Assembly: GCA_000310025.1 (NCBI GenBank)
Contig: FN649740.1
Location: forward strand, 1,916,136 to 1,980,135
From: Ectocarpus siliculosus
Taxonomy: Eukaryota; Sar; Phaeophyceae; Ectocarpales; Ectocarpaceae
Length of the DNA stretch: 64,000 nucleotides
Reading direction: 5' to 3'
Each line of letters opens with the position of its first letter. Positions within the stretch are counted from its first letter, which is position 1. Of the stretch, positions 1,756-62,055 are shown piece by piece. The position numbers and the translations under genes are program-made. The notes beneath the pieces were generated by a model. It searched no databases and was not told the DNA's origin. It worked only from the letters and a program-made list of their open reading frames with translations.

Positions 1756-4700
1756 CCATCTGGTGCGAGCCGGCCATGCTGTTGCTTCGTCGAAAAGGTT
1801 TGTAACAGTTGTTATTCCGCCTCACTCAGCGCTTGTGTAACCCCACAGTATCGCCCTGCTTACACGCTCTTAGGGATTTAGGGCATCCCCCAGAAGGGAG
1901 GCCTAGACAAATGCTATGGGCACTTGAGAACGAAGGATATTGGTGTCCGATCGTAGACTTCATACTGTACGAAACCACTAACCAGGAGAATAATCCCCCC
2001 CGGCACCCACTCTCCCTGGCATGGGTCTCATTGCTCGCAATCACAGGGGCATCAAGAACGGTAGCAACTATTGTTACCTCAACGCCAGCATTCAAATGCT
2101 GCTGGCGTTGCCAGGGGTCAGGACTATGGTGTTCCAAAGCATGTCTGGCATGGTCCCAGGTGAGAATTGAACAGAGGAATGAATCTGGCAACAAAATCGC
2201 AAAACTTAATAGTCTACGCTGTGTTCTCCTCGTGCATGATGACACAAAATGACAACGAACTCCATCAAAATATCCCTTGAGTGAACGCTGGTGAACTGAT
2301 TTTGTGATGTGACCGGCCGGCCGTGTATTTCGAGATAATCATCTTATAGTTTTTCCTCTCAAGAAGAGGTCTGTCTCCTCCGCCGCGTATCAACGCGTCT
2401 GAACTCGATGGCGTGATTGCCCTAGCCTTTAACACACATACATACATACATAAACACAGGTCAACCGGAGGAGGATCAAACACACGATGAGGCCTTCAAC
2501 GGCAGTAAATAGTTTCCTCCTTCGTTGAAATAAGTCTCTCAAAACATGACGGGTACTTTGTACCTCATGTTGTTGCAAACACCGCAACAACCAGTCCTAA
2601 AAAAAATGAACGTTCCCCACTGGGTGCTCCCTCGGTGGTTGATCTATTCCTTTTCTGACAGGCAACGATGTCGACACGAACAACACCTGCCCCACAAAGG
2701 AGGACGTGATGAAGGTGATAATGGCGGCGAAGAGGTTCACAGAACGAGGGGGCACGCGTGCAGACGGAGACACAGTGCTCATGGCGAAGAGGATCACCGT
2801 CCACGTCTTGGGATGGGCCTTTAAGGTGGGAATACCAACGAACACAATAAAACTTACGATGATAACGACAACCTTATAGCAAACAACCGTAGTACACACA
2901 GCACACTACAAACGAGAGGGCATCAAGCGGAACCAGGCTGGGGAGTACTCGGGGAAACCACGCATGAGCCGAATGCTCAAGTTGAAGGAGCCCCATCGTA
3001 TCCTAACCCAAGACGTAGTAGGGAAAAAAAAATCTCCAAAACATCAAGATAATAGTACCTGAACATCGTTCGTTGCATCATGCTGCGACTAATTCGTGTA
3101 GTGGTATGCACGCGTGATGAAGTCTGGTTGACCCGTGAAGAAGAACTCACTTGTTGTTACTCTTGTAGAACAGCAGCAGCAGTAGCTGTTGCCTTGGGTA
3201 TCGGTAGGAATGACACCAAGGGGCACAGGATCCTCTGCACAAGTAGGGGCTACTAGATCATGTCCCCTACTTTTTATCCTTCCGCGGAGAGTTACATCTC
3301 TCCGCGCCTTCTAGAAGGAACCAAGCTCTTCTATGTTCCGTCTACACATCTGAATCCTATAACACTAGCCCACCCTGGAGGTTCTCATACGCAGATACTG
3401 TAAAACCTCGAGTCTTGACAAGCAATTGTCGAGTCTCTAAATGAAAGTATCGAGGATGTGGAGCTCCAAAACAGCACAATTCACCCTCCCACACCTCTCA
3501 CTCGATGAGTCGCAAGACCATCGTTTGACTTCTAAAACGACAAAAAGACACAGACAGGAAGGAACTGACGGGGCTAAGAAAAGCCTACGACGACCGGAAG
3601 AAGATCGGAACCAAAGAAAGGAAGACACAAAAAAAGGAAGAAAAACAGAAAAGAAAAACAGAAAAGAAAAACAAAGGTCGTCAAAACGACAAAAAGAAAG
3701 GGTCACTGCAGGAACCACAACAAGACCGGTATCGTAAGAAAACGACAAGATACGCCATTCACGCAGTCGCCACGGCAGTGTAGAAGGGGCATCAATGGGC
3801 GCGAAACACCTACAGGTCGTGACCAAACGCTAAAGGCACAAAATAAAGCGCGGAGAAAGCGAAAACCAACCAAGGCTAAAAAAAAACAACCCAAACAACG
3901 CTGAAACAACAGAAAGCCAAGACAACTAGCACGTCGTCTTAATGTGGGCGCGCAACGTTATCAGGCAACGAATCAGTCCCGGGGTCACCACGCGACATGT
4001 CGACGTTGCGAAGGATCCCCTTAAAAAGGGCACTGCCGCTGTGAACTTGGAGGCACCAGGATCCGGAGACGGCGGTTTCAGCGGTGGAGTAGCGAACATC
4101 AGGAAGGGCGAGCTTGACAGGGCCAGGATCGTCCAAGAAGCGGACGACGTAGAAGTCGGACGGTAGAGGCGGTCCAGTAATCTTGCCCAACCACCAGAAT
4201 CCATCGCGAGCTTTGTACCAGAAGAAGGCGCCTGCAGGTAGCGGAGTATTGGCGAAGCGACGGTCCCAAGTTGAACGAGAGACGAGCGAATAACCCGAAG
4301 GCAAAGCTCGCTCCCCTTTAGCGCGCGCCATCTCGCGGGTGGCCGCACCAATACGCATAGCCCGATAGCGACGATTCGTTTGGCGATGTTGATCAGGCGA
4401 ACCCGTCCAGTACCGGAGAATGTGGGGCTTGGAATGCTGGAGGTCCATCTCACGTTCCCAAGAAGGACGAAGAAGACCTTTCCAATGCGTTTGGTATAAA
4501 ACAGCGATGGTGCCACCACGGCCACGAACAGACTGATGGCCACTAATGCGGTCAACCTCGAGACGTTCGACCGGAGTCGACACGTCGTCTTCCGTAACAT
4601 GGTAGGGAGGAGATTTATTCGCATAGGAGTTTAGCACATACGGTGTAAGGCCGGCAGGCAGGAACCGAGGCAAGTCTTCAGTGTCATGCGGATTAGCGCA

Positions 4701-7700
4701 AGGCTTGCAACGCGCAACTGATACACGGTTTTTCGAGTCCGGACCCGGCAGATCCGATGGAAGATCCAAATACAGTAACTTGGAAGCCAGAGGACAACCG
4801 TCAGGAGCGTCAGGACACGGACCCACGGCCAAGATCTTGAACTGACCAGTCCAAAGGAAAGACAACTTAGCCTTGAGGACCTTGTCATCCGTGCCTGAAC
4901 GAACACCTTGGCGAATGGTAGATTCGGTGTTGTACACCCAAACCCATCCACCGACGGTGTATGAGGGGACCTTGCGCAAAGCATCCGATAGAGCGGAGTT
5001 ACGCCGCTCAATCCTCGAAACGGACAGGTTGCGCTGTTCGCGAACTAAATCGTAAGAACGACGTTGGCGATCAGCAGCAAGATCGCAATACTCAAGTTGA
5101 TCGCGATGCAAGCTTTGGTGGCCTCGAGCATATGGATGCTCAAAAACCGTCATCGGCATGCGTGGCAGTCGGTTCATATGCACCTCGTTGGGCGCCAAAC
5201 CAGTAGCGGCACTAACCGAATTGTTGTAGGCAAACTCAACGTGCGGCAGATGAATGTCCCAATCATCTTGCCTCTCATTGACGACCATAGCCAACATCTG
5301 AGCCATAGTGTGATTTACGCGCTCCACACCCCCATTGCCGTTGGGATGGTAAGAGCTGGTAGCCACTTTGCGTATAGCCAGACGGGCGTATACAGCCTGC
5401 GACAGTTTAGAACAAAACTGAGAGCCATTATCAGACAAGAGACTCAAAGGGCAACCCCATAAAGGGATATACCGATTGACAAGTACGTCAGCGGTGCCTT
5501 CGGCGGTGAATTCTGCAGCCGTAACCGCGTACATGTCAGCACGGCGGCTGAAACGGTCAGTGAAAAGCAGAATATATGTGTTTCCGCGCGGTGTCAACGG
5601 GAGGGGACCGAAATAATCGACGCTCACCGATACACCTGGGCCCGAAGGCAGCGGAAGGCACAAAGTAGGCCATCGAGGCGTTTGACGAGATGACTTGCGA
5701 GCTTGGCATCGCAAACAATGCCGTACCCACCACTTCGTGCAAACACTCATGCCAACCCACCAATAAAAACGTTCCAGCATGCTAAGCGTGCGAGCGGCAC
5801 CGAGGTGGCAGGATGCATCAGCGTGACAGGCTTGCATGATCCACGGACGCATGAGCATGGGAACATAAATCCGAATGGGTTTGTCGTTGAGAAGGCGAGC
5901 AGCACGCCCGCCAGGACGTGTGGTCGTAGACGACGGGGGCGCTGTTTGCTTGCGAACAAGCAAGACCAAACCATCATCGCCGACATGTAACTGGCCTTTG
6001 TTAGACAGGTCACGAATCTCCGACAGAGGAGGTCGACGAGCGGACGGAAGATGATCCAGGAAATCCGGAGGGAGAGCCGAAGGCCGACCCAGAAGGATGA
6101 AACGAATAGCTGCATCACAAACAGGTTCGTTACGTTGCTCGCGAGCCCAATCAGCATGCGAGAAACGTTCGACAGACGCCCGGAAGGCTAAATCTGCCGA
6201 GGAATGTAAAGCCGCCTCGATAGAAGAGGGGGCCGATTCCTGAGGCTCCGGCGGCAATCCACCCGAAGGCAGAGTAGCAGCGGAAACCGAAGACGAAGGC
6301 GTATAAGTGGTCGAAACCAAATGCGTCGAAGATTCCGAAGAATCGGGAGCAGCAGAAGACTGCTGGGCAGGAGCAACCGAAGTTGCAGGATGTGTCGAAG
6401 ACGCAAGATCCCTTCCACGAGCCAGAGGCGTATGGAGGTCTGGGATCGAAGTGTCAGCACCAGGAGCCGAAACCAACCTGGTCAAAACGGGGGGCGCCGT
6501 CGATGCTGATTGTGCAGGCGGGGAACGTCGAAACGATCTGGGCGAAGCGGAAATCCGAGTAGGAGCCGGCGGGTCCTCAGAGAAACCATAATCCACGGGC
6601 GGGAGGGGCGTGCCTGCCACAACCGCCGTGCGACGGCGAGTTCGCGTGGAAATCAGTTGAGTAGGGTCGAGAGTCCGTCGTGATGCTGCAGTCGGCGAGA
6701 CGGCCGGCGAAGACTCGGGCTCGAGAGCCAAAATGTCCTCCACCGAAGAATGTAAGGAGCCAGACCAACCGAGGGTCCTGTCACGCAAGCGTCGTAGCGA
6801 AGGAGACAACCCGCGGGAGTTGATGGACGGCCAGGGTGCAATGTTCCAGATGCCAGACGGAGACGAAAGGCCTGACGGCGAGAGACGTGGACCATGCCGA
6901 CGGAAGTCGACAAAATCATCTGTAGAGGGGGCCAGCCCACCCAAGACCGAAGTCGGGGAAGTTGGGACGAGCCCACCCAAGCCAACACCCACGGCGCGAT
7001 GGCCAGAAGGCGTAAGGCCACAAGAACGGATGAAGAATACGCTCTCCTCATCGTCATCCGGTGTCAAGCGACTGCGACCAGATCGGTCACATTCCGCCGC
7101 ATCGATCGGAAGGCGAGAGAGGAAATCAGCGTTGCCATTTGCGGAACCCTTGCGGTACTCGAGAGTGTAATTGTAGGCGGTAAGAAATTCAAGCCAACGC
7201 TGAACGCGGGCATTATTCTCCCCCACCTTGGCAAAATGCTCAAGAGATTTGTGGTCGGTAAAAATGCGAAATTTCGTGCCCCACAAATAACCGCGAAGTC
7301 GTTTGATGCACCATAATACGATGCTACCCGCCTCGAGGTCGAGGGGAGTCCAATGACGTTCGGAGTCCAAAGTAGCTCGGCTGATGAAAACGATGGGCCG
7401 GATGGAGCCATCCGGCTGTTCTTGTTCGAGAGTCCCGCCGAACCCATCGCGACTAGCATCACAGTAGAGGCGAAAAGGTCGCGAGCCGTCCGTAACGGCA
7501 TCCCAATCTGGATAAACCAAGACAGGAGGGTTGGCCAACTCAGACAACAGGACGCGAACAGCTTGCTCCATGGCAGGGGTGAAGGCGAACGTCGCCTGCT
7601 TCTTGAGAAGAGTGGTCAAAGGTCGAATTCGCGTAGCCATGTTGGGAAGGAACTTGCGGTAGTAGCTGAGGCCGCCGAGAAGAGAGCGAAGTTGTTTAAC

Positions 7701-10700
7701 ATCCTTAGGCATGGGCATTTTGGTGAGGGCCGAACACCGTCAGGGGAGATGGTGTGGCCGAGGAAATCCGCTTCGGTAGCGCCAATGGTGGCCTTCGGTG
7801 GGGTGAGTTTCAAGTTGTGTGTGCGCAAGCGTTCAAACAGAGCGCGCATGGTATCAACATGAGAAGCCGGGTTGTCGTCGAAAACGATCAAATCATCCAA
7901 GTACGATGCAACACCGTGGAGATTTTTGATGACTTCGTTGACCACCTTGCAAAACCACCCAGGGGCAGCAGAACTGCTCTGAGGCATCTTCAACCACTCA
8001 AAAAGCCCGGAAGACGTCACGAATGCCGTCAAAGGGATTGTATCACGGTGAACCGTGATTTGGTGGAACGAAGACTTCATGTCGAAGAGGGAATAGATTC
8101 GCCCTTTCAACAGCTTGTCCAAAGTATCATCAACTCGAGGAATCGGAAGCTGGCTCAAAGCACAAAGCTTGTTGAGCTTGCGATAGTTGACAGTGATGCG
8201 AACACCACCAGATTTCTTCGGTATGATTACCAAAGGACTCGAGTAGGGCGAGGTCGAATGTTGGATCAGACCAGTCGCAAGATATTGATCAAGGATCGCG
8301 TCAACTTGTTTCGCCACCGGGGGGTTAACGCGGTATGGACGAGACGTGACGGGTGCACTGCCCGGAGGAACTGTAAGCTTGAAAGGAAAAAGCGAACAAG
8401 GTCCAAAGTCGATGGGGGAACTCGAGAAGACATCATGATAGTCGCACAGGACGTTACCAAGCTGAGTGATGACATCCGGAGTCCAACCCGGACCATGGAG
8501 ATCAAAAGAAATCTCACGGAGATGGCAGGGGAGCTTATCCCATACGTGGGAAAAACTCTGACGTTGTTCAGACGTCAACCGCTCGAGAAGAGCAGGCGGA
8601 GGCGACGAAAGAGAAGCACTGGCAGAACCAGGGTCCTCTTTGCCGCTTTGCGACGGCGTGGGTCGCTCATGCAAATTATACACGAAGGGGTCATCAACGC
8701 GATGCGTGGCAGACGAATCAATGCCATCTGTCGAAACAGGACCCGGAACCCAGCTGCCCGAAGCAGTGGTGGGATCTTGAGCCGCAGATTGAAGACCATC
8801 GCTCAAACTGTGGCGAGACACAGCACTGAGAGGCACGCGAAGAAGGGGAGCCGAAGCTGTACCCAGAACGTCGCCTGGTTCGAGTGAAGAGATACCCGCG
8901 AGCGGGAGTCGTTGGCAACCATTTTGCACAAAGTGTTCCTCGGAAGAAAACATAGCACATTGTGGAAGCATATCCACGAGATAGTTACCCACGAGGGCTG
9001 GAGAGCCATCGCTGCGTACCAAATTAACCGGAACAAGGCATGTTCAGGGTGAAGTTGGACGGAATGTTTTCCAGCATAGCGAAGCTGGTAGTTACCATCT
9101 GTGGAAGACAAATCGTGAGCGAATGCGGTGGCACCGCAACTGCTATGCTGAGCCAGGGTAAGCTCACCAAAAACACGGTCACCAGGGCGTTTGGCACGCA
9201 AAGTGCGGTAAGAGCGGTCGCTAAACCGCATCCAACTGTCTCTCCCAAGGAGCACGTCATGATGCATAACACCACCGGGAACAACGTACGCCCAAACAGC
9301 GAGAGAGGAAGTAGGAAGGCGCTTGCGAAGAAACTGCACGCTCAAGCGGACAATAGTCGAAGTTTGAAGTGGAGCAGATTCGCCGAAACCTCCCCAACAG
9401 CGAGGTTGGGTTTGTTTCTCAGACAACGACGAAGCGGCCGAAGTGGCTTTCATGGATTCCCACGCAGATGCACTAATAAAAGACTGCGGGGAACCCGTGT
9501 CTAAAAGAGCAACACATCCAAACTGAACAGAAGCTGAACCACTGTGAGTGAGGATTTGGGTGGTGAAAGAGTCATCATCGATGGTAACAACACCATCAAC
9601 CAAATCCGGACCTTGCTCAGGAAGCAAAGAAGAGGAAGAGAATGGCTGAGGGCACCCGGAAGACACGGCCCAAACAGCGGTGTCATGATCCGATGGAACA
9701 TTCGCAGCGTATTGTGAAAACGACGCGAATCGTTCAGTCGACGGAGGGGTTGAGGCCATCCGAAGACGCTGGTGTGTAGAAGGGCTAACTTCATAAACCG
9801 CGTTATGTTGAGACGACGTCGAAACGTGGTCGTTGGGGGGCAGCAAACGAGAGCTGCGCTCGGGCGGCGGGGCATTGCATCGCAAAAGACTGCGTACTCG
9901 TTGAAGGGCATTGCCCAACAAATTGAGGCCACGCCATCGAGAGGTGGATAGAGCGTCAAGATCATCGGCTTGAAGGCAAATGCCCCAAATACGGTCGTAG
10001 GGACTAGCTTCGGCAAGGATTTTGTCGCCAGATCCGAGAAGATGCTCGCGCAACTCGGAGTTTTGACTAAATTTTGCGTAAGAGCCAGTGAGCACAATAT
10101 TTTCGCGCTCCTGTTCCCAAAGTGATGGGTCGAAACCACGGACACCTCGGCCAAACTTCTTGTGTAGGGCAGGATCGGACACGCGCATGATGTTTTGTAA
10201 AGCGCAATGGTCTTCGAAAAGACGAGCTTTTTCCGCAGCGAAAAACTGCTCAGCACAAGAGTACACCACTCCATCGACCACAAAAGTCGACGGGGTCCAT
10301 TGGGAAAAGGGAGAGGGGGGCTGCCAAAAGAAGACCATATCAGGAGTACAATACTCGTTAGATGGGTCGAAGACATCGCGAACTGCAGGAGTCGAAACAC
10401 CTGGAGTGCGGTCAGCCGAAGCTGAGGTTGCAGCCGAAGCTGATGTAGTCGAAGCGGAGGAGGCAGCCGAAACGCCCGCATTGTAATTGACGGCGTGAAC
10501 GTCCATGTGGACGGTCTCGGGTATGTCAGAGACCGGCGAAGAATCGACGGGAGCCGGATTGTTCGCAATAATTGGGCCAGCGACATCACGCTGGGTGCGC
10601 CCCAATTCTAAACCTGAAGAAACGCCTCGTAAGGTGTCATTCAACAGGTTGCTTTCGCTAGGAACGGCCGCCAAGGCCGGGTCGGTTAAAGAACCAAACC

Positions 10701-13700
10701 GGGCGTGGTGCTCCTGGCCATTCCTCCGTGACAAGGTACGCGAGACCGCCGGTTGTTCGGAGGTCACTCCGGGAGGGTCCTCCCGAAGCGGTGGTGTCAA
10801 CACTGTCGACGTCGGTCGCGGCGGCCTGGTATCGGGCGCCGTGGGGCGAGCGTGCGTCGGAAGGGATGGAGCGTCCGAAGACGATCCATGGTCGAAATAT
10901 CTCGTGGCGGAATCTGATGATGTTCGGCGGTCAGGACCAAGAGAACAACGCGATTCGAAGCCAGGCGAATTTGACCCTGTAACTTGCCGGTCGGAACCAG
11001 TCAAATTAGCTACCGGTGCAACAATCGAGGGCGAACCCTCAACGGAAGCGGGCACAGACGAGTTGAGCGTATCCGAAGATTCACCCGAGGTAACCAATTC
11101 AGGCGATTCCTCTTCAATCGTCCAAAGCGCATGGCTACGGCCGGTCTGATCTGCAGACGACGGGGGGAGCGAACGAGCGGTGCCCGACAAACGAGCGGTA
11201 CTCGATGGCCCCGAAGGTCCTACGGTTCTGTTCCCGCACCTCAAGACAGTACTCGCGCCAGACTGGTTAGTTTCTGACGGAGCGCCAGTCCGAAGAGACA
11301 GAGACGCAGAGGTGGCAGATGATAAGTGCGATGTAGAAGGTGGGACGAGAGCATAATGTCTGGATACCGACCTGATCGACACTGGGAGAAACAACGGATA
11401 CCGAAGTATGGTTGTTATTGTGAGGCACCGAAGTACCAGAAGGGATAACATTCACCGAAGTGTGGTTATCGTTGCGTAGGACCGAAGTGCTAGAGGCAAC
11501 AGTGTGTGACGGCGCGACAGATACCGAAGTATTGTCGTTGTTGCATAAAACCGAAGTATTAGGGGCAACAGAGCGTGACACACGAGCGTCTTGTGAAGAA
11601 CGAGACGAGGTCCCCGAAGATGCTGAAGGCGGTCCGGGGGAAGTAGGCGAACCACCACCGATGAGTCATCCGCTGCGAGAACGGCCACCATTTTGGAAGT
11701 TGCCAGGTTGACGGGCATTGTGATTGGTCGAAACCATGATGCCAGACGAAGGACCGGTGTGTGCATGCGTTTGTGGTTGATAGAGGGACAGAGCACCAGT
11801 GTGGTTGGTGTTGATCGAAGGGTGTTGCTGAGGGTGAGAGTTACCCGCAGAATTTCCTGGGGCATACCCACTGTTGTGCGATTGTGTCTGAAGAGTGTGA
11901 GGGGAACCACCACCGTCGGAACAGCGATTCCCAGCATGGTTTCGACGCTGAGAGGACGAAGAGGAAGAGCGCTGGTGGCGTCTACCCTGATTGTTTTGGC
12001 GGTTGTCCGCACTTTTTCGTCGAAAAGACCGCATACGGCCTTGCCAACGTCTAAAAGCAGCAGAATCGTCATTGAGGAGACCCAACTCGGGGTTCAACAA
12101 CCCACTCGAATTCGTGAACGGTGCAACGCATTGCTTCATGGAATGGTCTTCACCCGAGCAGTTCAGACAGCGATTCCTGTTTTCGCGGAAGGCTTGCGAG
12201 CGAGCCTCTTGTGTCAACAAAGGAGTCCACAAAAAAGGATCCTCCGTGTTACGAAAACTAGAAGTGAGAGCGTATACATCAGACCAATCGGCTTGCGAAG
12301 CAGGCCAAGAATTATAGTTGCGTGTGAAAGGGTCAGCATCGTGCGATTGTACCGGCAAAACTACAGGGTTCTGAGCTGAACCTGGTGCCCACTGGCCCGA
12401 AGGCGCGGGGGCGCGGTGTTGGGACCGCCGAGGCTGCGAGGAGCCACGCGTCGAAGACAACGAAAAATAAGATGAACCGCCGATAGCCGGGGTTTTATTT
12501 GTCGCTAGAGGCGCGAACGCCTCCCACATATCCGCAATCGACGCAAAGGGAGTGACGGCCGTGGCCAGAGCACCCGGGTACAAAATCGGAGACAAACTCG
12601 GAAATTGCTTGCAGACCGAATGCCGCACTATTTCTAGAACCATGGATACGCTAGGGGCCAAAGTACGCTCAGAGCCAGTCACAGACGAAACCAACAAACG
12701 AAAAGCACGAAGGTAATCCGCGAAAGAAGTACCATCTGCTACTCCAAATTGATGAAGCCTCAAAAACGACTCTTGACGGTCGCCGACATCAAATTGCTCC
12801 GCAAGATGACGCAACAGCAACTGAAAAGCTTCTGGTCCGGTGGCGCCGCCGTCCAAGCTTCTCTTCACCTGCTGAAAGTAATCAGCGATGGAAAGGACAA
12901 GATCGGCAGTAGAGGGCTTGTCAGGGGTGATCGCACCCGAAAGTTTCTTTTCGAGAGGCCGTTCCCATCCAGGCACGTAATCAGTACTGTCCAACCCTTC
13001 GCTTTGGTCATCACACAGCAACAATATGTCGGACAAGGCCGTTCGTGTTGTGCGGATGAGCTGTTGGTAGCCGTCCCCAGGCAACAAAGTTGAAGGGAAG
13101 GGCATGGTAGCGACATTTCCAACTTTTTTCAAGTTCAGAGTGATGTACGCCCGTTGGACAGTAACTACGTGAGCCTTGCGAACTGCCGAAGCAGCCGCAT
13201 CTACCGTGGCTTGACGAGCATGTGCAATGTTGGAAGAAAGTGGCAAAACACTATCATCCAAAACGACAGGGGGTGCAGCAGCTGCAACCGAAGAAGCAGC
13301 AGGCGGAACACGATCCCAAGACGGTACAACCTGATGAACATCTTGTACGGGCACAAAAGTCGAAGGGGGGGTTGGGTTTGAGAACCCGGGGTTGTGTGCG
13401 ATTCCTGAGCCTACAGCATAATCAGCGGTAGAAAAAACAGGAGGTGCAACAGTTTCCGAAGAAACGAGGGGGGCCGAAGCCTGTGCCATGTTCGAAAACG
13501 CAACACGAGTTTCCGAAGAAACGGGGGGGGCCGAAGTCGGAGGGACAAAATCATCACGCAACAAAAAACGAGCATCCGAAGTTGCGTCCATGAGGGACGG
13601 AACTACTTGCCTTTGACGACCTGGCTTGCGGGGCAAACTGGTGTCCGAGCCTGACCCGGTCTTGCACTTGCCTTTGGAGCTGCGAGCTCCATTCCCGCCA

Positions 13701-16700
13701 CGCTTGGCCACCTTTCTCTCCCGGCTACCACCCACCGAAGAGGACGAAGGCGCCGGGGGTCGACGCGATGCTCCAGCCGAGCTCCAGCCAGACTCCTCGC
13801 CCGAGCTACCAGGACCACTCTCCCGACTCGGTTGCGCCTGCTTGACACGACCCGGCGCCGGCTGCTGGAACACATAGGAAGCCTCTAAAGGCGGACCGCT
13901 GCAGCCAGGGTACACCACCGGAGCAGTGGCACGGGCGTTGGCTGTCCGCATCCCAGCGAGGAAACGGCCGGCCAGATCCCGAAGATCCAGACGGGAGGTG
14001 TTGGCCACATCCACCGCCGCCTGTATGGTGGCGGCCGCCGGCAACGCGATGGCCACTTCCGTGGCCAAGTCCCTGACCGATTGGCTATCTTCAGGAAGGA
14101 AGTTGAACTGCTGGTACTGCGCAACATCGGCTAGCTTAGCCGGGGTGAACCTGTAATCACCTGGCTCGAACGCGATGAAGCCACGTCGCGACGACGAGGA
14201 GCGGGTGACCGGGCTGGTCGAAGCTGCAGCCGCATACGTTCGAGACGAAGCGGCAGAGGTGGTCGGTGCCGAGGCAGCTCGCCTGCCGATTCCCGAGGAG
14301 CGGGACGATCTCGCCGACGCAGAATTCCACCAGGAAGTCTCCGTCCGAGAGGAGGAGCTCAGGCTCCTCCGAGCGACGCGCGCTTCGAATGCGAAGCAGA
14401 TCATCGACCTCGAGGCACTTCAAAAGAAGTGCGAACAGCAGAGGAGTCAACTGGCCGCCACCTTGACGGCAGACCGGCGCCAGGAGGACGCGCCCGTCGA
14501 AGCGGGCCGTAAGGCCGGCAAACGACGGGAGCAGGACCTCCGCGAACGACCGGTCGTTCGCGGCCAGTTGACTCCTCTGCTGTTCGCACTTCTTTTGAAG
14601 TGCCTCGAGGTCGATGATCTGCTTCGCATTCGAAGCGCGCGTCGCTCGGAGGAGCCTGAGCTCCTCCTCTCGGACGGAGACTTCCTGGTGGAATTCTGCG
14701 TCGGCGAGATCGTCCTGGGCCTGTCGGGCGGCCGCCCGGTCAGCATCGACGGCGGCGCCGCTCGTCATGCGAACGGCGTCCGTCCAAGCGGTCGAGCGCG
14801 CATCCGCGGACATGACGTCCCACAGGGCTGCGGGGACCCACCGCGGGCAGGAGAGAGGTGCAGCCGTGGCCGGAGCCGTGGCCGGAGCCGTGGCCGAAGC
14901 CGTGGCCGAAGCCGGGGGTACTGCCGAAGCAGGGGTGGCGGCCGAAGCCGAGGGCGCCGCCGAAGCAGCGGTGGTGGCCGAAGCCGAGGGCGCCGCCGAA
15001 GCAGCGGTGGTGGCCGAAGCCGAGGGTGCCGCCGAAGCAGCGGTGGTGGCCGAAGCCGAGGGGGGTAGGACCATCTAGACAGGCTCGGCCGGCCGGCCGG
15101 TGACTGCAGACCTTGTTCCGCCACCGGTGGTGGAATCCCGAAGCTCGGGAGTCGAAAGCCGAGCTGAAGATGTCGGCTCGTGCTTGGGGGCGGGAGTCGT
15201 GGTCACCATGGTGCTAAGAAGGCCGTGGAGATGGCGATTATAGCGTTCTGCGATTTCGAGACGATGCAAAGCATCAGCCGTAGCGGCACGTTCATGCGAA
15301 GAGGAAAGCATGGGGGGGGGTGGGGGCACGGCGTAAGGGTAAGGGGAAAGGGTAGGGGCAGAGGGTACTGCTGAAACAACCGAGGTCGCAGCTAGGGGCG
15401 CCGAAGCAGGAGCTAGCATGGCAGAGTCGGTCGAAACGGTAGGATCGAAACCCGCCGTGTGAACACGTGAATCTGTGGAAAATGCGAGCAGAGGCGTATC
15501 TACTGGCATGGAAACAGCGGTGTTTACAGCAGCCGAAGCCGCTGACACAGGGTTCTGTGTGGAAGTAGTGTGGGCGGGGAAAGGGGCAGACGACACTGTA
15601 CGCAGGGTCGAAACGGTGCGAAGAGGCGGAGCTGCAGGAATAATAGCATCGCCAGCAGTCGAAACTGTGGGCAGGGGCGGAGTTAATGGAATGGGCAAAA
15701 GTACACGTGCAGCAGTCGAAACCGCAGAGACAGGTGCACCAGTAGTGGGAACATGATAGGCATGTGGGTGGGCAGACGTCACAGCAGTACGCAGCGTCCA
15801 AACGGTACGCAAAGGTGGGGCAGCTAAGGCAGCAGCACCGCGAACAGTCGAAACTGTGGGTAGCGGCGGAGCTAAAGGGATGGAGGCAAACACACCTACA
15901 GCAGTCGAGACCGCAGGGACAGGCACATTAGCAGTCGAAACTGCACGTGTAGTCGAAACTACTGAAGCTAAAGCATCGGAGGCAAACGAAATGGCCTGTG
16001 AGGGCGAAACCACGGGATCAGATGCAGTAGAATCAGCCGAAAGAGCTGGGGTAGACGAGGCTACTGTGGGGAGTGTACCAGAGGCAATCGAAATCGCCCG
16101 TGTAGTCGAAACTACTGGAACAGTGGTTGGTGATGCGGCGGAATCTGCAAGCGGTGATGTCACTGAAGCAGATGCACGACGGTCACGAAGCCGTTGAGCG
16201 CGAGCCGCTGCTTGTACACGATCGCTACGAGAAGAAAAAGGGGGAATCGCCGGCACTGTATAGTCGAACTGCAACGTGCTGCGAGAAGCCGAGCGACTGG
16301 ACAAGCGTGGTACTACAGGGCCAGCAACATGGTCGAAACCGATGTCGGTCCCAAGAGCAGGGTGCTCAACGGTGGATGGGGCGAGAGGAAAATTCGAGTC
16401 GACATGTGGTTCACGCGGGAATTCAGAAAGCTCATCACCAGCAGCCGTCGAGACGGACTGCTGTTGTACACCCAAAGACACAGAGGCAAAAACCGAAGTT
16501 CCAGGTGTGGGTGCTGGCGGTTTGAGGACAGCACCCACGGGGTTAGCGTCGATCGAAGCCGGCGAGGCGAACCTCTCCCGAATGCGTTGAGCGCGAAGCT
16601 CTGACAAACGAGCGGCATCGGCAACAGGGTCAGCGGCACGAGCACCGTCCGAAGACAGCAGCAGTTGTGTGGCCTGACGGCCAGCTGCCGGGGACCCGAA

Positions 16701-19700
16701 GGTCGCTACACGGGGCGATGACACTGGCGAACGCGAACGTTCCGAATGCTCAGGACTCGCCGAAGCAGAGTCTGATGAGCCGACGCTAGGTTGAGACATA
16801 CCGATAAGCGAGGCAAAGCTAAGCTGTGGTTGGGGCGAAAGCGCAAAAAACTGCAGCAGCAGTCCAAAGCACCAAACCGCGCCAAGACACAACCAAGCCA
16901 GACAACACCGTACGAATAAGCCGACAACGCCAAGTGTAGTGGTATGCACGCGTGATGAAGTCTGGTTGACCCGTGAAGAAGAACTCACTTGTTGTTACTC
17001 TTGTAGAACAGCAGCAGCAGTAGCTGTTGCCTTGGGTATCGGTAGGAATGACACCAAGGGGCACAGGATCCTCTGCACAAGCAGGGGCTACTAGATCATG
17101 TCCCCTACTTTTTATCCTTCCGCGGAGAGTTACATCTCTCCGCGCCTTCTAGAAGGAACCAAGCCCTTCTATGTTCCGTCTACACATCTGAATCCTGTAA
17201 CATTCGACGCCAGTTCTAGTTCACATAGACTACATCTATATTTTTCCGATGGCAACCGGACGTTTTTAGAGTAGAGAATGCGTTGTTTGTACCCAGAAAA
17301 TTGACATCCCATCACATTTCGTGTTTTCACACTACTACATGTACTTCTGTGTACCCGCGTCTGATTCCCGACTTGTTCTCTCCGGCGCTGCCGCATGGAT
17401 GTATGTATATGGATCAAACCTGTGCAGAACTCTGTCATCTTCTACAGTTCAACGAGAACAGTGTGTTTACCCTCTGCTCAATTTTTCTGGCAGGAGCTCG
17501 ATCAATCAGACTGCACCGCCCTGGACATGAATGAGTTCAGGCCAATCGTGCATGGCCTCTCTATTTTGACCCGGCGGGAGGTATGGATGATGTCGCTGCC
17601 ACTACACGTACTCTTTGGCTTGCAGCAACACATCGATCGCAGGACAGACGGGCGGGAGGATGCAACTACAGTACCTACCTCTGCCAACAGCAAACGAGCA
17701 ACGAGACAACAACAATCAATGCGTGCTCCGCGATGTCATGTGCCCACCGTTGGTTCCAACAATGTTGGCACGGTTGGGTGAATCATGCTGCCGAATCGGC
17801 AACGGTGCTTGAAAATGGTCCACGAGTGCGCATATCTATCTATGTAGCGGTGCAGTGACGTTTATACCCCCGAAAGGATCGGGTAAAAACAACATGTTCT
17901 GAATGTGACAGGCGACTCGTGTCGAATAAAGTGCGAGGGTACTTAAGACTATCAGGCTCGCATGATGTACTGTTCGATGTTCGTTGCGTGTCCTCACCGA
18001 CCGTCGGTTGTGTGTGGCCTCTACTTTTTCACGCCCTTATTGCAGCTCAAGCCCCACACTTAGGAGGACGCCTCCGAGGCAACCCTACTCCTGCTGGAGG
18101 CGGTGCTATCTGTCGCCGAAAAGGAAGCGGTGAGCGACAGTGATCCATGTTGTTGACAGGGTCACAACAAATACACACACATGATATGATAGATATACTT
18201 GTAGCAATGCCAAGTGGTTGTAGGATTGTGTGGTACGTGGAATGTATTTCCAGGGTGTGTAAGGTACCCCTTTTGTATACTGCGTCGCCCCCTCGTGGTG
18301 GTGCGTGCACGCGTGCGTGCAGTCCATGTCTGTCCATGTGTCCATGTGTCCATGTTCGTTCATGTGTTCATGTGAGTCCATGTTTTTCATGTGAAGAAGA
18401 AGTCTATACAACAAGCCCAGCACATCTTTCCTCCTTGGCGCGAGTTCGCCGAGTTGCCGACACCCTATTCAACACACGTCTTGCGACAAGCTACCCCCAG
18501 TTCGGATCATCCTAACACGCTAGCGTGTGATATCACACGGGATCCCGAGGTGAGGTTAGCTAAAAGGGTTCGGCTAGAGAAGTAGATCATGGAAGCCCTC
18601 GACCTCAGCAGCTTAACTGAAGAGGACCGCCAAGCATTATCGGCGCACATCAAAGAGGAAGTGGAGAGAGGAGTACAAGAAAAAATCAAGTTTACCGAAG
18701 AGAAGCGTCCCGCATCGGGATTGTGCTTTGCGGGTGTAGGGTTCATCCGCAGGACAGCTCTCTTCACCTTTAACGGCGCATGTGCACGCTCAAAGCAAAG
18801 AGAGACAGGTGTCCGAGAGAATTGGAATGTCAACGGAACAAGACCAACAGCAGTGCGTGGTGTCCGAGAGGATTGCTGATGAGTCAACGGAACGACAGCG
18901 AAAGGCGCCATGCGTCTATCTACCTACAATAGAGTACGAAGGGCCAGCTTGGGTGCACTGGTTCATGTTGATATTTATGTTGTTGCGTTGTGTAGCCTAC
19001 GCGCGAGGGTCAAGCCTTCCTGATCATTTCTTTCATCATACTCCCCCGTCACCGTCATCCGTCTTCCCCAGCAGCCGTCCGCAGCTTGCTTTCGTAGATT
19101 CACACGACTGGAACAGGCGTTCTACGGTGTTCCAGTCTGTTCGACGATGGAACGGTGGAACATTCCTTCCCACACAAAGAACAAGTATTTTTTTCCCCCA
19201 GCGAAGACGTACTCTAGCGTGGACAAGCCCCCCGATGGAGGCGATCCCCGGCATGCTCGGCCGGCTGGAACAGCGTTAGACCCGCAACCTGAAGACCAGC
19301 CACGATCGTTGGAGGACCGTCTCGTTGAGTCCTTCGCGCGGGCAATGCGGAGGACCAACACCCCGGGGGAAGAAACCAGGGAAGTCTTACCCCCTAAGGA
19401 CACCATCCGTGTCAGTCCTGTATGTAATACATGTAGCCCCATTTACGGGTGTGTTTGATTCTAGTGGCGATGTCCAGGTTGGGGTACAGGTTTTTGAGAG
19501 CCAATTTCGAATGTTGTTGTAACACTGGAGATGCCGAGCAGCAACACCATCAGCATGCGCCTACTAAGGTCGTAGATCCGCTCAGGCACGTGATGATCTG
19601 CTCACCGTTTTACGTCTGAAGTGGTTTTGGTATATGCTTGCATGCTTGTCTTCGTCGATTTCGTTTGGGTGTGCTCCGATAAACCTACAGCACACCTTGT

Positions 19701-54700: not shown

Positions 54701-57700
54701 ACCTCTTCTCCCCGCCGCCGACCGTTCCGACGCGTGGCGACGATGGCGGCGCGACCGGAGGCGCGGGCCGGGGCGGGTGCCACGGGGGCGGGTACCGACA
54801 CGTCCGCGCAGCAGCAGCCGTCCAGCAGGTCCAACTGGTCCACAGTCGGGTCCTCGCACGGTGGAGCGTTGGTGGCACGGGGCAGCAGCCGCAACAACAG
54901 ACGCGTCGGCAGCGTGGCAAGCGGCAGCGGTGGAGACAGCGACGGCTTCCACGCGACGATGCACACCACCCGCAGAAGGGAACGCTGGGCGTGTCAACCC
55001 CCGACAACGGCCGCAACGAGTCGAACCAGCGTCACCAGCACCACCGCCAGTGGCGTGCGTAGGAGCGCGCTTGTGACTAGGGACAGCTCTTCGAAGTCGG
55101 CGGGCAAAGAGAGCCCGGGCGGCGGGTTCGCCGGACGCAGGGACGGGAACGTTCCCACAGCTAGAGTGACGAAGGTATCCTTCGAGGTAGCAGGTGGCGG
55201 GGACGGGAGGGGTCACCGCAGCGGCGCGGTACTGCAGTCGGCGGCCAGCCTGGCTCGCATGTCCCGATTTCTTCCTCCTAAAATCAACACCAACCGCAGC
55301 GACAGGAGCGGAAAGCACCCGGCAACCGCCGGTACGGCGCAATTCCACAGCATCAGCCGCTCGGGAACAAGGAACATCTGCGGTGGAGCCACCGCTGCCC
55401 CCCGTATGGTGTCTTCTTCGGCGGCAAGCTCGTCAGCGCCCACGATTGGCAACGGTGCCGAAAGCTGCAAGATGGCGCCACAATCGGTGTACAACATCGC
55501 TCGCCCGACGTCCCCCTCGGCGGCTTGGAAGATGGGTGGCGGCGGCAGCGTCGCCAACGACAGCGACAGCGGAATCCAAGACACCCCATCGACATCGACC
55601 GCGGGAGTTTCGACCCTCGTATCGGGTGCAGCTCTCGACCGCGTCCGCACCACCGATTGTGTCGGCGACAGCGGAATCCAAGACACCCCGTCGACATCGA
55701 CCGCAGGAGCTTCGGCCCTCTTGTCGGTTGCAACTCTCGACCGCGCCCGCACCACCGGTTGCGTTGTGGTCGTAGCCAATGGCCCGAAGGATGACACGAT
55801 TGTCGGCGAGGGAGGGGACGGCAGCGATACCGATCGATTCGGCGTCACCAGTGTGGGGACGCCGTTGCCCAGCACCCTGGTGATCGCGGAAGGGAGCGAT
55901 GGCACCTGCAATGGGCTGACCCTCGCGGATCGCAGCCTCGTCTTCGGCACGTTGTCGGAGGTGGGCATCTTGAAATGTTTCGGTAGTGACTTCACGGCAT
56001 CGTATCAAGAGTCTCACGATAACTCATTCAGTAGTAGTTTGCAGCCCGAGCGTCCCGTCGACAAGCCATCCAGAAGAGACAGCAAGGCTTAGCACGAACA
56101 CGCCGGAAACTAGAACACAACTAAATCCTTCAAATAACATTTGGTCGTCCTACCCCGTGCAGCACTCCACTGTCCTTCTAATCGCCGCCACCTTACGCGC
56201 GTGCCTATGTTGTTGGTGTCGTTCATGTGCAGAGCGAGGAGGAACCGGAGGAGGAAGAGACGAAAGAGGAAGGTTACCTACGAGAGGAGAAGTACAACGA
56301 ACCCCAGGCGGGCCTTACCGACAGACGGTAAGTGGCAATGCAAAGAGTCCGGCAGGCGCTGTTTTTTTCTATCCTGGTCCGCGGTCTCATTATTATGTCA
56401 GTGTGCGATGTAGTACAACCTCAGTTTTTTTTTTACCGCCACGGCGTTTGCCGTTTGACACTGTGTGGCGTCGAGTCTCGAGCAACAAGGCAGGAAACCT
56501 ATGAGTATAACCGGAAGCATGCATACAAATCGTGCGTTCCAAAGGCTGATTGCCGAGCCCAGAGCTACGCCAAATATGGAGAAACACCACAAGCCATCAG
56601 AAGCACCTTTTTTCTCACGGACAAGCGAAGGGAATGGTGGGGTCGTTGTCTGTCTTCTCGCGGATGCCGTTTGTGTTGGGCCCTTCCTAGCTGTGGGACA
56701 AACCGGGTGTACCCTTCAAAACCGATAACAAGATGAACACACCTCGAACACGCCTCTACACTCACTTGTTCCACCAGGGAAACCAAAACGCATGTTTTTT
56801 AGATGAAAGTCAAGAGGTGTTCCGCTCTTTACAAACTGACTCGCCCACGTGTAGGGGATGCACGCACCGTAAAGTGTGAATCATCGCATCCCCCCTAGAG
56901 CGACTGTCACAGCTAGATGGCTCCACAACCACGAGGTTGCTAACGCCGAAAAGGGTGGTGTTGGAAACACATCTCGTCAAGCATCTCGTCAAGGAGATTT
57001 CCTTGCACGTATCGGTCGGTGTTTCGTACCCTCTTGGTTGCTGAGCAATCGAGCTTTGAACGTGAGCCCAGCGGTGGTGGGATCACTTGCCCACAGACGG
57101 GCATCAGATCATTGGTGTGAGAAGGACGAAAACAGGGAGTCTCTTGTACCGGCCCGTGGTGATACTGGGAGCCAAGAATGCGTTTCGGTTCTACCGAGTC
57201 TTGCCCCCCACTCACCATGCCATGCCTACCGTTCCAGCTAGGTGTGTAGCATCACGTCTTCTGGGTATCTTGGTCCGGACCGTGTACCGTTCAGTGCTCA
57301 AAATCGTCTAGCTTGTCATGCAGAAATTATGCTTACCTTACCGCACCCCTAACGCTACGATGCATTCGCCAACACGCGTGCCCTCTGTCCACATTCTGCC
57401 TCTTCTCTGCGCGTTGGGATGATGCTCATTCTCCTCAGACCCCAAGAAACAGAGTGTGGAAAAGGCGCGGCACCATCTAACCCAGGAGAAGTGATCTCCA
57501 TCGCTGCAACCGAGGCCAGCCCGTCGACCCCACCGTCCCCTTCGGTGAGCCCCGTCCCGAACGGTTCTGTGGTGGGCTCCGCTACCGGGCGAGCGACGGA
57601 GCATTCGGAGTCTTCCACGTCATCCGCATCCCCCCAACCAGAGCAGGCACCGGTTCTGGCCGACACGGCGGAGAACATGGGCGCAACGGATTTCCATGAA

Positions 57701-60700
57701 AAGGAACCGGTGAGGCTGTCTCTAGCACCCCGGCCTTCTCCGGCGTTCCCGCCGCCCCCTTTGGGACAGGCAGAGGCCCCGGTCGCCATGGCAGAACAGA
57801 AGGATGAGGTCGGCTTGCAAGAGACGGATAAGCCGGGGGCGACTCGATACCCCCCGCTGTCGCCACCACCCTCATCGCAACTTCCAAACAAGGTAGTGAC
57901 TACGGGGGTCGTACGGAAGAACGACGCGACCGGCGTGCAAGACACGGAGGAGCCGGCGGGGCCTTCTCGTTCACCCCCAACGACCACGCTTGCATCGTCA
58001 TCCCCGCCTCCCCTGTCCTCTCCATCGGGCCAAGCGATCTCTCTACCCGAGGACGCCATCGGCGGAGTTGCTATGGGGGTGGTACGGAAGAACGACGCGA
58101 CCGGCGTACAGCACAAGGAAGAGCCGGCCGGGCCTTCACGATCACCCTCGACGCCCCCGCTAGCATCGTCGTGCCCGTCTTCCCTGTCTTCTCCGCCGGG
58201 CCAATCGATCTCTCTGTCCGAGGTCGCCGCCTGGGGGGAGACCGCGGTCTCCGAGGAAGAGGTGCACCTGCTGGACATAGAGCTGGCGGTGCGGCGAAAG
58301 GACAGGGCTCTGCAAGAGGCACAATGCCAGATCGAGCTGCTGCTGCGAGAGAAGGGCGCGGCCTCGGACGAGGCGGCGCGGGACACGAAGCTACAGCTGC
58401 GGGAAAAGGACGAGGCTCTCAAGATTGCGGAGGAGATGTTGAGGCGGTCGGCCGAACGGCAGAGGGAACTGAACACACAGTTGGCCAAGAGCTTGCACGA
58501 GGTGAGCCTCAGGGAGACGGAGCTGGAGACCGCCCTGCGGAAAAGAGGGGAGGAGGACAAACGGGGCAACGAAGAGAACAAGAAGATCCAGGCCGCGATG
58601 CGGCAGGTTGAGGAGGAGGCAGCCTTGGCTCACACGAAGTTCGAGTCTCTGCGCGAGCACGCCACGCGGGAAGTGTTAGCCGCGCAGCAAAAGGCGACAG
58701 AGGAAGTCGGGCGAGCCCAATTGAGATATGAGTCTCTGTGCGAACGCACGATGAGGGAGTCCGCGGCCGCGGAAGAAAGGGCGAACCGGGAAGCCGAGGC
58801 TGTCCAAGAGAAGGCGAGGGAAGAGGCACGAGGCGCCGATGACAGATACAACGCTCTGCACGCGCACACCGTCGACAAACTCGCTGAACGCGAACAGGCG
58901 GAGCGACAGCTTTCGGAATTGAACGAGAACATGGAGAGAGAAGTCCTACGGCTTACCAAAGAGGTGCGTCATAGGTTTTTTGCGGAATCGACTTGCGCAG
59001 GAAAACGCCAGGTGTTGTTTTACTTGCGTTCAGCATTAGGTGCTCTCTGAGATGTTCTCGTGTCGGCGTTCTGTGACATTGTAGGGTCCTGTTGGTCGCC
59101 TATCTCTTTCAACCCCTGCTAAGACAAACCCAGATTACAACACCGTTAGTCGAGTGCCTCCATACTCTCCTCTACCTCCCTCTCGAATAAATGAAAAATA
59201 ATGCAGCTGGGATCATGTTCAAAGTCTCGGAACTACGCGTTGGTCATGCTCGGGAAGCAAAGCGAGCTGAAGGCAGAAGCGGTCAAGGAGGCAGAGGACC
59301 TGCGACGAAAGCTTGCCGCCGCTGAGTTCGAAAGCGCGGCAGATCTCGCCGAGACACGTCTGACGGCGCACAACAAGGAACAAAGTCTCCAACAGGAGCT
59401 GCTCCGGTCTTGCCAACAGACGGCCGAAGTAAAACAAATTGCAGAGGATGCAGTAGCGAGTGTACAGCAAGGAGAGATGAAGTATGCCGAATATCAAGCG
59501 GCAGCGGGCGCCCGAGTTGCGGCTGCGGAGGTACGTGTGACAGATCTCAACGAGAGGCTCGCCGATATGCACGAGCAAGAAACGACGGCGGCAGGAGCAG
59601 CTAGCGAGCACGCCCTGATGCTGCAGGAACGAATTGAGGCACTCGGCGAGGACCTCGAGGACATAGCTGACCACGCTGCCGCGGCGGACGACCGATCTGC
59701 GGCTGCGGAGGCGCGTGTGACGGACCTCAACGAGAGAATCGCCGTTCTGCAGCGGCAGGCAACAGTCGCGGGCGGAGAAGCAAGTGAGCGCGCCACGATG
59801 CTCCAGGAGCGAATTGGGTTACTCGGCGAGGACCTTTCAGGGGTGACCGACCGTGCTGCCGCTGCGCACGCTCGATCTACGGCTGCGGAGGCGCGTGTGA
59901 CGGACCTCAACGAGAGAATCGCCGTTCTGCAGCGGCAGGCAACAGTCGCGGCAGGAGCAGCAAGTGAACATACCTCGATGCTCCAGGAACGAGTGGGGTT
60001 ACTCGGCGAGGACCTTGCGGGGATGACCGACCGCGCTGCCGCTGCGGACGTCCGGTCTACGACTGCAGAGGCGCGTGTGACGGACGTCAACGAGAGAATT
60101 GCCGTTCTGCAGCGGCAGACAGCAGTGATGGCAGGAGCAGCAAGTCAGCACGCCACGATGCTCCAGGACCGAATTGAGGCACTTCGCGAGGGCCTTGCAG
60201 GGACGACTGACCGCGCTGCCGCTGCGGACGTCCGGTCTACGACTGCGGAAGCTCGAGTGGCGGACCTCAACGAGAGAATCGCCATTCTGCAGCAGCAGGC
60301 AACAGTGGCGGCAGGAGAAGGAGGTGAGCGCACCATGATGCTCAAGGACCGAATTGAGGCACTCCGTGAGGACCTTGCAGGGATGACTGACCGCGCTGCC
60401 GCTGCGGACGTCCGGTCTACGGCTGCGGAGGCTCGAGTAACGGACCTCAACGAGAGAATCGCCGTTCTGCAGCGGCAGGCGACAAAGTCGGCAGGAGAAG
60501 CGGGCGAGCACGCCTCGATGCTTCAGGACCGAATGGAGCTCCTCGGCCAGGACCTTGCGGGGATGACTGACCGCGCTGCCGCTGCGGAAGCTCGATCTAC
60601 GGCTGCGGAGGAACGTGTGGCGGACCTCAACGAGAGGCTCCACGCTCTGCAGCGGCGGGCGACAGCAGTGACGGCGGCAGGAGAAGCAAGCGAGCACGCC

Positions 60701-62055
60701 ACGATGCTTCAGGAAGGGGCTGAGGCACTCAGCCAAGACCTTAGGGGGATGACTGATGCCACTGTCGCCGAATCGAGAGCCGCGTCGCTTGCTACGAGCG
60801 CAGGCTTCTCCGCTGCGGGAGCAGAGACAACGAACGAGGTCATGGACGACAATGACGACGAGCTCATCAGCAGGGCGCTCGAGAGAGTGGCGAGCGTAGA
60901 CCTCTCTATCGCGAGGTACGCGGAGGCGAGCGCAGAACTCCGGCGCGTCGCTGACTGGGCTCCCGAGGTAACAACGAACGAGACACCTCGTTCTCGAGCC
61001 CGATCGCAAGGGATCGAGGTCGCGGCGGTCGGGCGGGTAGCGGGAGCGGAAGTGAGGACAGTAGAGCTAGGAATCGGCAACGCCCGCCTCTGTGCGCTCG
61101 CCGTGACGGGCAACGAGGAGAGCAAGGAAGAGGGGGTGGGCGAGGAGGTCCGAGCTCGGCGACTCCACCTGTCTGCCGAGAACTCGCACTTCGAGCACGA
61201 GGTCGCCGACGGATACGCTTCGCCGCACGAGCGGGCCCGCTGGGAGGACGACGCGCGGCTTGAAGGTACCGTCGAGGGCGAGGCGGAGAGGGAGAGCGCT
61301 AACGGCTGCCACTGGCGGGCCGCGATGGCAGACCTGCGCGAGATCGACGTGAGGATGGAGAGGCTGCAGCCCATCATCGAGGCGGGGGGAGAGTGGCTGC
61401 GGCTGCAACGCTCAAAAGACGAGGAGGGATGGGGCTACGAGTCGGCGGCGAGCAGCAGAGCGTCGGAGGCGCTGGCGCGAAGGGTGTCCAGGTTGGAAGA
61501 TTGGAGGGACGGCCTAGAGGAGTGGAGGAACGCCGCCAACGAGCAGCGTCGCGCGGAAACCGACGCGCTGCTACGGTTCTCAGACGAGGCGAGGACGACC
61601 GCAGGGGTCTTCGCCGGCCAGCGGAGGCCCGGGGCCTTGGCCGAAGAGAGGGCCTCCCGGACGAGACGGCAGGGCGGTGCACATCGAGCAACCGAGTCCA
61701 GGCCTAGAGGTGAGGACCGATAATTGGTTGTTCATGTGGAAGGTGTGTTCATTCTCTCCTGTGAAAAAAAAAATGTCCAAACCTTCCCGGCCTAGGGGGG
61801 ACTTCAATAAATATCGATTGTACTTCTGCCTCTACTGAAAAGTCCCGGCGGGGTGATTGGTTGCCGCGGGGTGCCGGATTTCATTCTGTTTCGAAGATTT
61901 CAGGAGGCGGAAAGCTGATGTCCGCCCTTTGCCTCGGGAAACACTTGCTCAAATATGCTGGCAAGGACCCTCTGTTGTCACGCGTGCAGCCTCACATAAT
62001 ACAGATATTGAACGTCATCCATCTCAGCCCACCCGTCGACGACTTTCCCGACTGA
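51706..62055 (+). CDS. Large coiled-coil protein, about 2,127 residues, 8 exons
   Basis: Exons: 51706-51915, 52195-52338, 53808-53927, 54326-55960, 56233-56327, 57439-58963, 59207-61709, 61904-62055. All phases close. The ATG at 51706 has a good context (ccagccATGc) and an in-frame TAG just upstream. The N-terminal ~158 residues look globular (NPAVCLYVFRGGVVTLCLHP, QAWRWGLDKEELLVPVTKDE, VEIAIVNKRTLRDVEYFN), but I do not recognise them. A long Ser/Asp/Gly/Thr-rich disordered region follows. Then come an acidic exon (SEEEPEEEETKEEG), a Pro/Ser stretch, and a coiled coil of over 1,000 residues containing seven 60-residue tandem repeats. The end is LLKYAGKDPLLSRVQPHIIQ. If exon 4 is not spliced at 55960, it runs to a stop at 56092 and the locus would be two genes. 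I prefer one gene because the GAG|GTGGGC donor and every downstream phase agree. The role is likely structural, as in a cytoskeletal, basal-body or Golgi scaffold (inference). Confidence 0.68.
55560..55765 (+). repeat. Two-copy 102-bp repeat in exon 4 of the coiled-coil gene
   Basis: The segment starting gacagcggaatccaagacaccc at about 55570 recurs at about 55669. It encodes DSGIQDTPSTSTAG(V/A) followed by a similar LDR(V/A)RTT block. This is a recent in-frame duplication in the disordered region. Confidence 0.8.
59521..60780 (+). repeat. Seven 180-bp tandem repeats encoding 60-residue coiled-coil units
   Basis: Units start at 59521, 59701, 59881, 60061, 60241, 60421 and 60601, with an exact 180-bp period. 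Each begins like ggctgcggaggcgcgtgtgac and encodes about AAEARVTDLNERIAVLQRQ, an Ala/Gly/Glu linker, then MLQERIGLLGEDLAGMTDR. The last unit gains 6 bp. High DNA identity points to recent unequal exchange or gene conversion. A 60-residue period is compatible with a continuous helical rod. Confidence 0.93.

Follow-up and report, generated by a model that had tools for sequence, protein, structure and literature searches.

The window analysed here is a stretch of 64,000 nucleotides from Ectocarpus siliculosus (contig FN649740.1, positions 1,916,136 to 1,980,135). Its minus strand carries a retrotransposon with a 5' LTR at 16935..17202 and a 3' LTR at 3097..3364, the latter marking its left end in plus-strand coordinates. 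The two LTRs form a direct repeat of 268 bp with 3 mismatches, each with TG at its start and CA at its end, and a TTCG target-site duplication is present at 3093-3096 and 17203-17206. Between the LTRs, the minus-strand order is gag, a NADAR domain with a DTG protease (PR), reverse transcriptase (RT), and RNase H (RNH) with integrase (IN). The LTRs, the target-site duplication and the PR-RT-RNH-IN order are those of Ty3/gypsy elements (Metaviridae); the assignment is based on domain order and Pfam matches, and the placement of the lineage follows the available text of PMC12477816.

The gag frame (11666..14404, minus strand) encodes a capsid-like region and one CCHC knuckle (CX2CX4HX4C) and ends with TGA followed by C. 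A Pfam profile search of this frame gave no match; its capsid and NC pieces were matched in related copies. An 882-codon open frame at 8803..11451 (minus strand) comprises the Pol N-terminal region, the NADAR domain and the retropepsin. It is followed by the RT frame at 7616..9022 (minus strand; PF00078, E = 5.4e-24) and by a frame at 3939..7718 (minus strand) that encodes RNase H, the zinc-binding and core regions of integrase, and a conserved C-terminal part (PF17917, E = 7.6e-29; PF17921, E = 8.2e-13; PF00665, E = 7.3e-9). The C-terminal piece recurs in related copies, and no chromodomain was found by Pfam in the window copy at E 0.01. A reading made from the letters alone (the sequence-only reading) had described the NADAR as the best preserved part of an otherwise broken region. 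This holds in part: in the window copy a single open frame covers both NADAR and PR, and other frames hold gag, RT and RNH-IN.

Several other features of the window were observed. Within the gag part, an inverted repeat (14296-14458 / 14560-14722) has 163-nt arms that are 98% complementary and separated by 101 nt, so that the same coding stretch is present on both strands. Short tandem repeats with a spacing of 12-24 nt (14854-15062) encode a part of the gag region that is rich in Ala, Ser and Thr. At 57419-61723 there are two long plus-strand ORFs with repeated units that appear by eye to be coiled-coil-like; the 840-aa ORF of this region matched two Ectocarpus proteins and gave one weak match among 7999 scored candidates. 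A window ORF that is not part of the element matched Ectocarpus sp. 8 AP-2014 (88% over 65% of the length) and Ectocarpus sp. CCAP 1310/34 (76% over 62%).

The NADAR domain and its active site

The six motifs from which a NADAR domain had been proposed are all found in the 8803-11451 frame. When this frame was compared to Pfam PF08719, a score of 151.3 bits was obtained against a cut-off of 35.1, with the match covering profile positions 1-163 of 163 and residues 374-524 of the ORF (nt 9880-10332, minus strand). Of the span of 9880..10341 first given to the domain, the start is correct and the end is three codons too far. The protease DTG is approximately 125 codons past the NADAR, as had been claimed, when measured from the piece offsets. 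Two solved structures were matched at E ≤ 0.01, the NADAR of Phytophthora nicotianae (8bau, E = 3.6e-18) and YbiA of E. coli (2b3w, E = 2.7e-8), which excludes a chance resemblance and assigns the YbiA fold to the element NADAR. Structure searches of the PDB library gave no match outside the NADAR group that was worth following.

Active-site residues were placed by alignment to 8bau, with their roles taken from the available text of PMC11543638, and were counted over 81 copies (80 fetched copies and the window). E43 is retained in all 81 copies, K50, E125, D130 and W133 in 80, R79 and W89 in 79, and R93 in 77. The catalytic glutamate of the last strand (E125 of P. nicotianae), which is the residue expected of the YbiA subfamily, is a glutamate in 80 of the 81 copies; in the remaining copy the position is a stop codon (X). 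Unlike 8bau, the element copies do not conserve the ribose contact D86, and the position of Y84 is phenylalanine in 79 of 81. A further difference is that the P. nicotianae protein is described as stand-alone in the available text of PMC11125620, whereas the element NADAR is part of Pol. From these comparisons, the classification of the element NADAR as a YbiA-subfamily member that keeps the catalytic residues and most ADP-ribose contacts is supported at the sequence level. The DarT1-linked NADAR antitoxins (BC4488 subfamily) belong to the same superfamily and share its chemistry; however, they have an aspartate at the catalytic site (PMC11543638, available text), whereas the element has a glutamate and its host genome, searched without regard to introns, gave no match to DarT at E 0.001.

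Copies, ancestry and selection

The genome searched comprises 189.5 Mb in 492 contigs, with the window on contig C15. NADAR was found at no fewer than 150 places (150 of 230 candidates were scored, and all 150 were above the cut-off), and its presence in many copies is thus supported. Of 491 candidate places matching the window RT, 150 were scored, and 126 of these have a listed NADAR on their own strand, upstream by no more than 4.5 kb; among the 150 listed RT places, a listed NADAR was never downstream or on the opposite strand. In each of the two lists, 24 places have no partner in the other (NADAR without RT, or RT without NADAR), for which decay or a partner outside the best 150 may be the reason. 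In every one of the 20 best-scoring long copies (10 kb each), the matches to PR, RT, RNH and IN are downstream of NADAR, some of these matches being partial or split between frames, and the window copy has the same arrangement. Copy L029 has approximately 1 kb of extra sequence between PR and RT, and in copy L031 another RT with RNase H follows approximately 3 kb downstream, which suggests a nested or tandem insertion.

The order is also seen outside this genome. In Ectocarpus sp. CCAP 1310/34, nine of nine listed proteins (P0001-P0005 and P0007-P0010) have NADAR followed by RT and RNH, with up to 91% identity to the element NADAR. The PR piece is absent from all nine protein models, in which NADAR is joined closely to RT; predicted introns are the likely reason, or perhaps real splicing. 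With a fixed place for NADAR in Pol and RT downstream, the capture of the domain by a Ty3/gypsy polyprotein is supported, and neither outcome that would have spoken against it, a failed profile match or a single copy, was observed. An insertion of a host gene or a single-copy artefact is ruled out by the number of places, the fixed position in Pol and the co-descent with RT described below. The 81 NADAR copies form nine clusters at 80% identity, two of which are frame-shifted singletons, and for the other clusters the identity to the window NADAR is 0.56-0.79. Since each of the nine clusters has one or more members that are followed by an element RT, a separate host NADAR gene was not seen; one may exist beyond the 150 of 230 candidates scored and the 80 copies read.

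Distances between NADAR copies track those of RT with r = 0.997 (15 copies), PR with 0.989 (16), RNH with 0.985 (12), IN with 0.980 (11), the C-terminal part with 0.990 (13) and NC with 0.985 (15) in Mantel comparisons, correlations that are driven largely by family structure and with which the family means agree as well. For each part, 0 of 2000 permutations reached the observed r. By family means, the close pairs for RT are A-B and C-D, and the NADARs of A, B and E are mutually nearer than they are to D. As NADAR diverged together with RT and IN, a single acquisition before the families split is the most likely history.

In a midpoint-rooted tree with 126 database proteins, the 13 element representatives are within one clade of 26 tips. 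The other 13 tips are database proteins, none of them among the named bacterial ones, and the support for the clade is 0.544. Among the 120 of 686 matches listed, the nearest named bacteria are Planctomycetota (57%) and Myxococcota (56%); given the clade support, a bacterial donor is a lead and not a result. An environmental protein within the element clade (P0006) has a NADAR that is 72% identical together with an element-type protease, and the lineage possibly extends beyond Ectocarpus-type algae. Two other database proteins have different contexts. The 866-aa protein P0011 of the glass sponge Oopsacas minuta has a NADAR that is 44% identical to that of the element and a long charged tail, with no further Pfam match at E 0.01, and in P0012 (490 aa) a macro domain is fused to NADAR, so that one protein combines two ADP-ribose domains.

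For the selection analysis, seven copies with stops and two that are seemingly frame-shifted were dropped, leaving 72 copies (63 distinct). Values of dN/dS were obtained by Nei-Gojobori counts with synonymous sites saturated in 1500 of 1953 pairs, and most of the fetched copies rank high in the list by score, a bias towards intact ones. In six unsaturated bins of rising divergence, the pooled in-frame dN/dS was 0.37, 0.27, 0.19, 0.29, 0.18 and 0.08, where the last bin has dS above 2 and is near saturation; two further bins were saturated. A control on the same alignments in the two wrong frames gave 0.71-2.44 in those six bins, and 14 pairs with no copy in common gave a pooled 0.26 from uncorrected proportions. 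When binned by synonymous distance, the pooled value was 0.79 (median 0.64) at dS below 0.02, 0.17 (0.15) at 0.05-0.10, 0.29 (0.19) at 0.8-1.5, and 0.41 (0.19) above 1.5. The drop after the closest pairs is expected if inserted copies decay freely while the transmitted lineage is constrained.

Individual families and regions differ, and family A counts against this constraint. Within family A alone, dN/dS was 0.71 for NADAR versus 0.22 for RT, 0.23 for IN, 0.45 for PR and 0.23 for the NADAR-PR linker; within family D alone it was 0.27 for NADAR, 0.20 for PR and 0.62 for the linker. The mean identity between families is 0.58 for NADAR, 0.54 for PR, 0.63 for RT, 0.70 for RNH, 0.74 for IN, 0.65 for the C-terminal part, 0.47 for NC, 0.45 for the PR-RT linker and 0.30 for the capsid region, with 0.17-0.27 for the linkers that flank NADAR. 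The selection that had been suspected from the preservation of the domain is borne out by values below 1 in all six unsaturated bins across many copies, and purifying selection on NADAR is supported by these sequence comparisons.

The gag-pol junction

In the window copy, the gag stop and a predicted hairpin downstream of it (11608..11668, minus strand) form a candidate readthrough signal. An NC match is present upstream in 18 of 21 long copies (20 and the window), and 16 of these 18 have TGA-C as the earliest gag-frame stop past NC. In 8 of the 18, from four families, TGA-C is the sole stop between NC and NADAR in one shared frame (A: L023, L024, L027, L033, L038; B: L032; C: L034; D: L039). 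The remaining 10, including the window, have frame differences or extra stops between gag and NADAR. The distance from the gag stop to the first ATG past it varies between families.

The UGA-C stop is in frame with pol in four of five family representatives. In one representative of each of the five families, a predicted hairpin starts within approximately 12 bases of the UGA; the stop and hairpin together are at 2776-2836 in L033, 8297-8357 in L032, 8155-8215 in L034, 7856-7916 in L039 and 11608-11668 in the window. The hairpin z-scores are -3.1 for A, -2.3 for B, -1.3 for C, -0.8 for D and -0.6 for E, weak in three of the five families, and ranged from -2.33 to +0.65 when 60, 90 or 120 bases past the stop were used. 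In an alignment of the five sequences TGAC is invariant, one of eight pairs changed on both sides, and the covariation term is unfavourable (+0.28). UGA-C may thus be considered a candidate readthrough signal mainly from its in-frame position, with the RNA structure by itself being weak evidence. The words readthrough, frameshift and stop codon are not used in the main text of PMC12477816.

Relatives and possible function of the element NADAR

A fusion of NADAR and Gypsy in Ectocarpus was described in 2025 by Dinatale et al. (PMC12477816), the only work on YbiA and a retrotransposon among the papers searched. The window element fits that description and its kind is thus already known; its likeness to the Gypsy NADAR lineage (e.g. 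Gypsy-12_Ec32) is one of description. The available text of that study is without dN/dS, active-site or readthrough analysis, all three of which are given here. It also reports a NADAR in ORF1 of a Tx1 LINE of the Pacific oyster, likewise borne by a retrotransposon but in a non-LTR element and with a divergent domain. A 2022 survey of viral NAD/ADP-ribose systems (PMC9503650) places NADARs in polyproteins of nidoviruses and of picorna- and hepe-like viruses, and the words retrotransposon and retroelement are not used in its available text. These resemble the element in having NADAR within the polymerase polyprotein of an RNA-templated replicator; however, those viruses have no LTRs or integrase. 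Against a viral structure library, the named polyprotein matches were Ingleside virus (E = 2.0e-6) and yellow head virus 1ab (E = 1.5e-3), with several giant-virus and phage NADARs ranking above them (best named E = 9.7e-12).

Host enzymes of ADP-ribose metabolism were searched exon by exon without regard to introns, an approach by which split genes can be missed. Four exon-sized PARP-type matches were found (best E = 4.5e-6), two of which contain a stop, along with a single match to a macro domain and, at one locus, three of the ADP-ribosylglycohydrolase type. Neither DarT nor the 2'-phosphotransferase family PF01885 was matched at E 0.001. The PARP-type matches make an ADP-ribose writer likely and leave a guanine writer unproven. 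Since PARPs are reported in the available text of PMC11543638 to act on proteins and, in vitro, on nucleic-acid ends, not on guanine, and DarT was not matched, no guanine-modifying host enzyme was identified.

The best explanation of the whole, offered tentatively and at slightly less than an even chance, is an Ectocarpus-type Ty3/gypsy copy whose Pol starts with NADAR and packages an ADP-ribose eraser through readthrough. Pol would be translated by reading through the UGA-C gag stop, by which a minor share of Gag-NADAR-PR-RT-IN would be packaged in the particle and NADAR would be near RNA and cDNA during reverse transcription. Free or fused, it would hydrolyse ADP-ribose from element RNA or cDNA, above all from their guanine bases, or from proteins in the vicinity, and lift a host modification that would otherwise block reverse transcription or integration. 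The undoing of host ADP-ribosylation of RNA, cDNA or protein, an idea raised in the sequence-only reading, would fit both the conserved active site and, by analogy, the activity of the nearest solved relative, as the P. nicotianae NADAR is reported to hydrolyse guanine-linked ADP-ribose (PMC11543638, available text). Counted against this best explanation are the ribose contact D86, which is not conserved, the dN/dS of NADAR within family A, the 10 of 18 copies without a simple one-stop junction, the weak hairpin evidence, the PR piece not found in the CCAP 1310/34 models and the fact that no guanine-modifying host enzyme was identified. The more specific proposal, in which NADAR actively erases ADP-ribosylation from nucleic acids and reaches the particle through UGA readthrough, is considered unlikely.

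Alternatively, NADAR could be a binder and not an eraser. Its ADP-ribose pocket would tether the integration complex to DNA breaks or ADP-ribosylated chromatin, and the domain would serve in targeting alongside the reported C-terminal chromatin-reader domain. The conservation of the ADP-ribose contacts over 81 copies, the PARP-type matches in the host and the chromatin-reader domains that published lineages are said to carry (PMC12477816, available text) agree with tethering. However, E125 and E43, which a pure reader would not need, equal the binding residues in conservation, NADAR and IN occupy opposite ends of Pol, and the window copy lacks a chromodomain at the Pfam threshold used, which together leave tethering doubtful. 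A role in RNA processing, acting on RNA of the replication cycle (primer tRNA, template ends) or on soluble ADP-ribose products of RNA repair, was proposed for the RNA intermediate by Dinatale et al. and finds a parallel in the RNA-virus NADARs that share polyproteins with a polymerase (PMC9503650, available text). With no PF01885 match in the exon-by-exon search, the usual source of such products is not seen, and this role is regarded as improbable. Housekeeping detoxification of small metabolites such as riboflavin-pathway N-glycosides is known from bacterial and plant relatives (PMC11543638, available text), yet would bring no apparent benefit to a retrotransposon that keeps the domain at a fixed Pol place in every long copy; it is very unlikely. 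The near-neutral change in family A and among the closest pairs overall would suit a functionless passenger or a recent host-gene insertion, but in-frame constraint in all unsaturated bins, divergence that matches RT and the number of genomic places already contradict such a passenger, which is scarcely credible.

While several families diverged, a retrotransposon lineage has thus kept a domain that bacterial antitoxins, phages and RNA viruses otherwise use in conflicts over ADP-ribose. Given the evidence on selection and the active site, the function guessed at in print can be tested directly with a small domain. Brown algae are described as without an epigenetic silencing machinery comparable to that of animals or plants (PMC12477816, available text), and no description of an ADP-ribosylation defence against retrotransposons in this group was seen in the literature searched. 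ADP-ribosylation may be a layer of transposon control in brown algae; if the eraser explanation is true, the long retention of the domain would mean that these algae use ADP-ribosylation of retrotransposon RNA or cDNA as a means of restriction.
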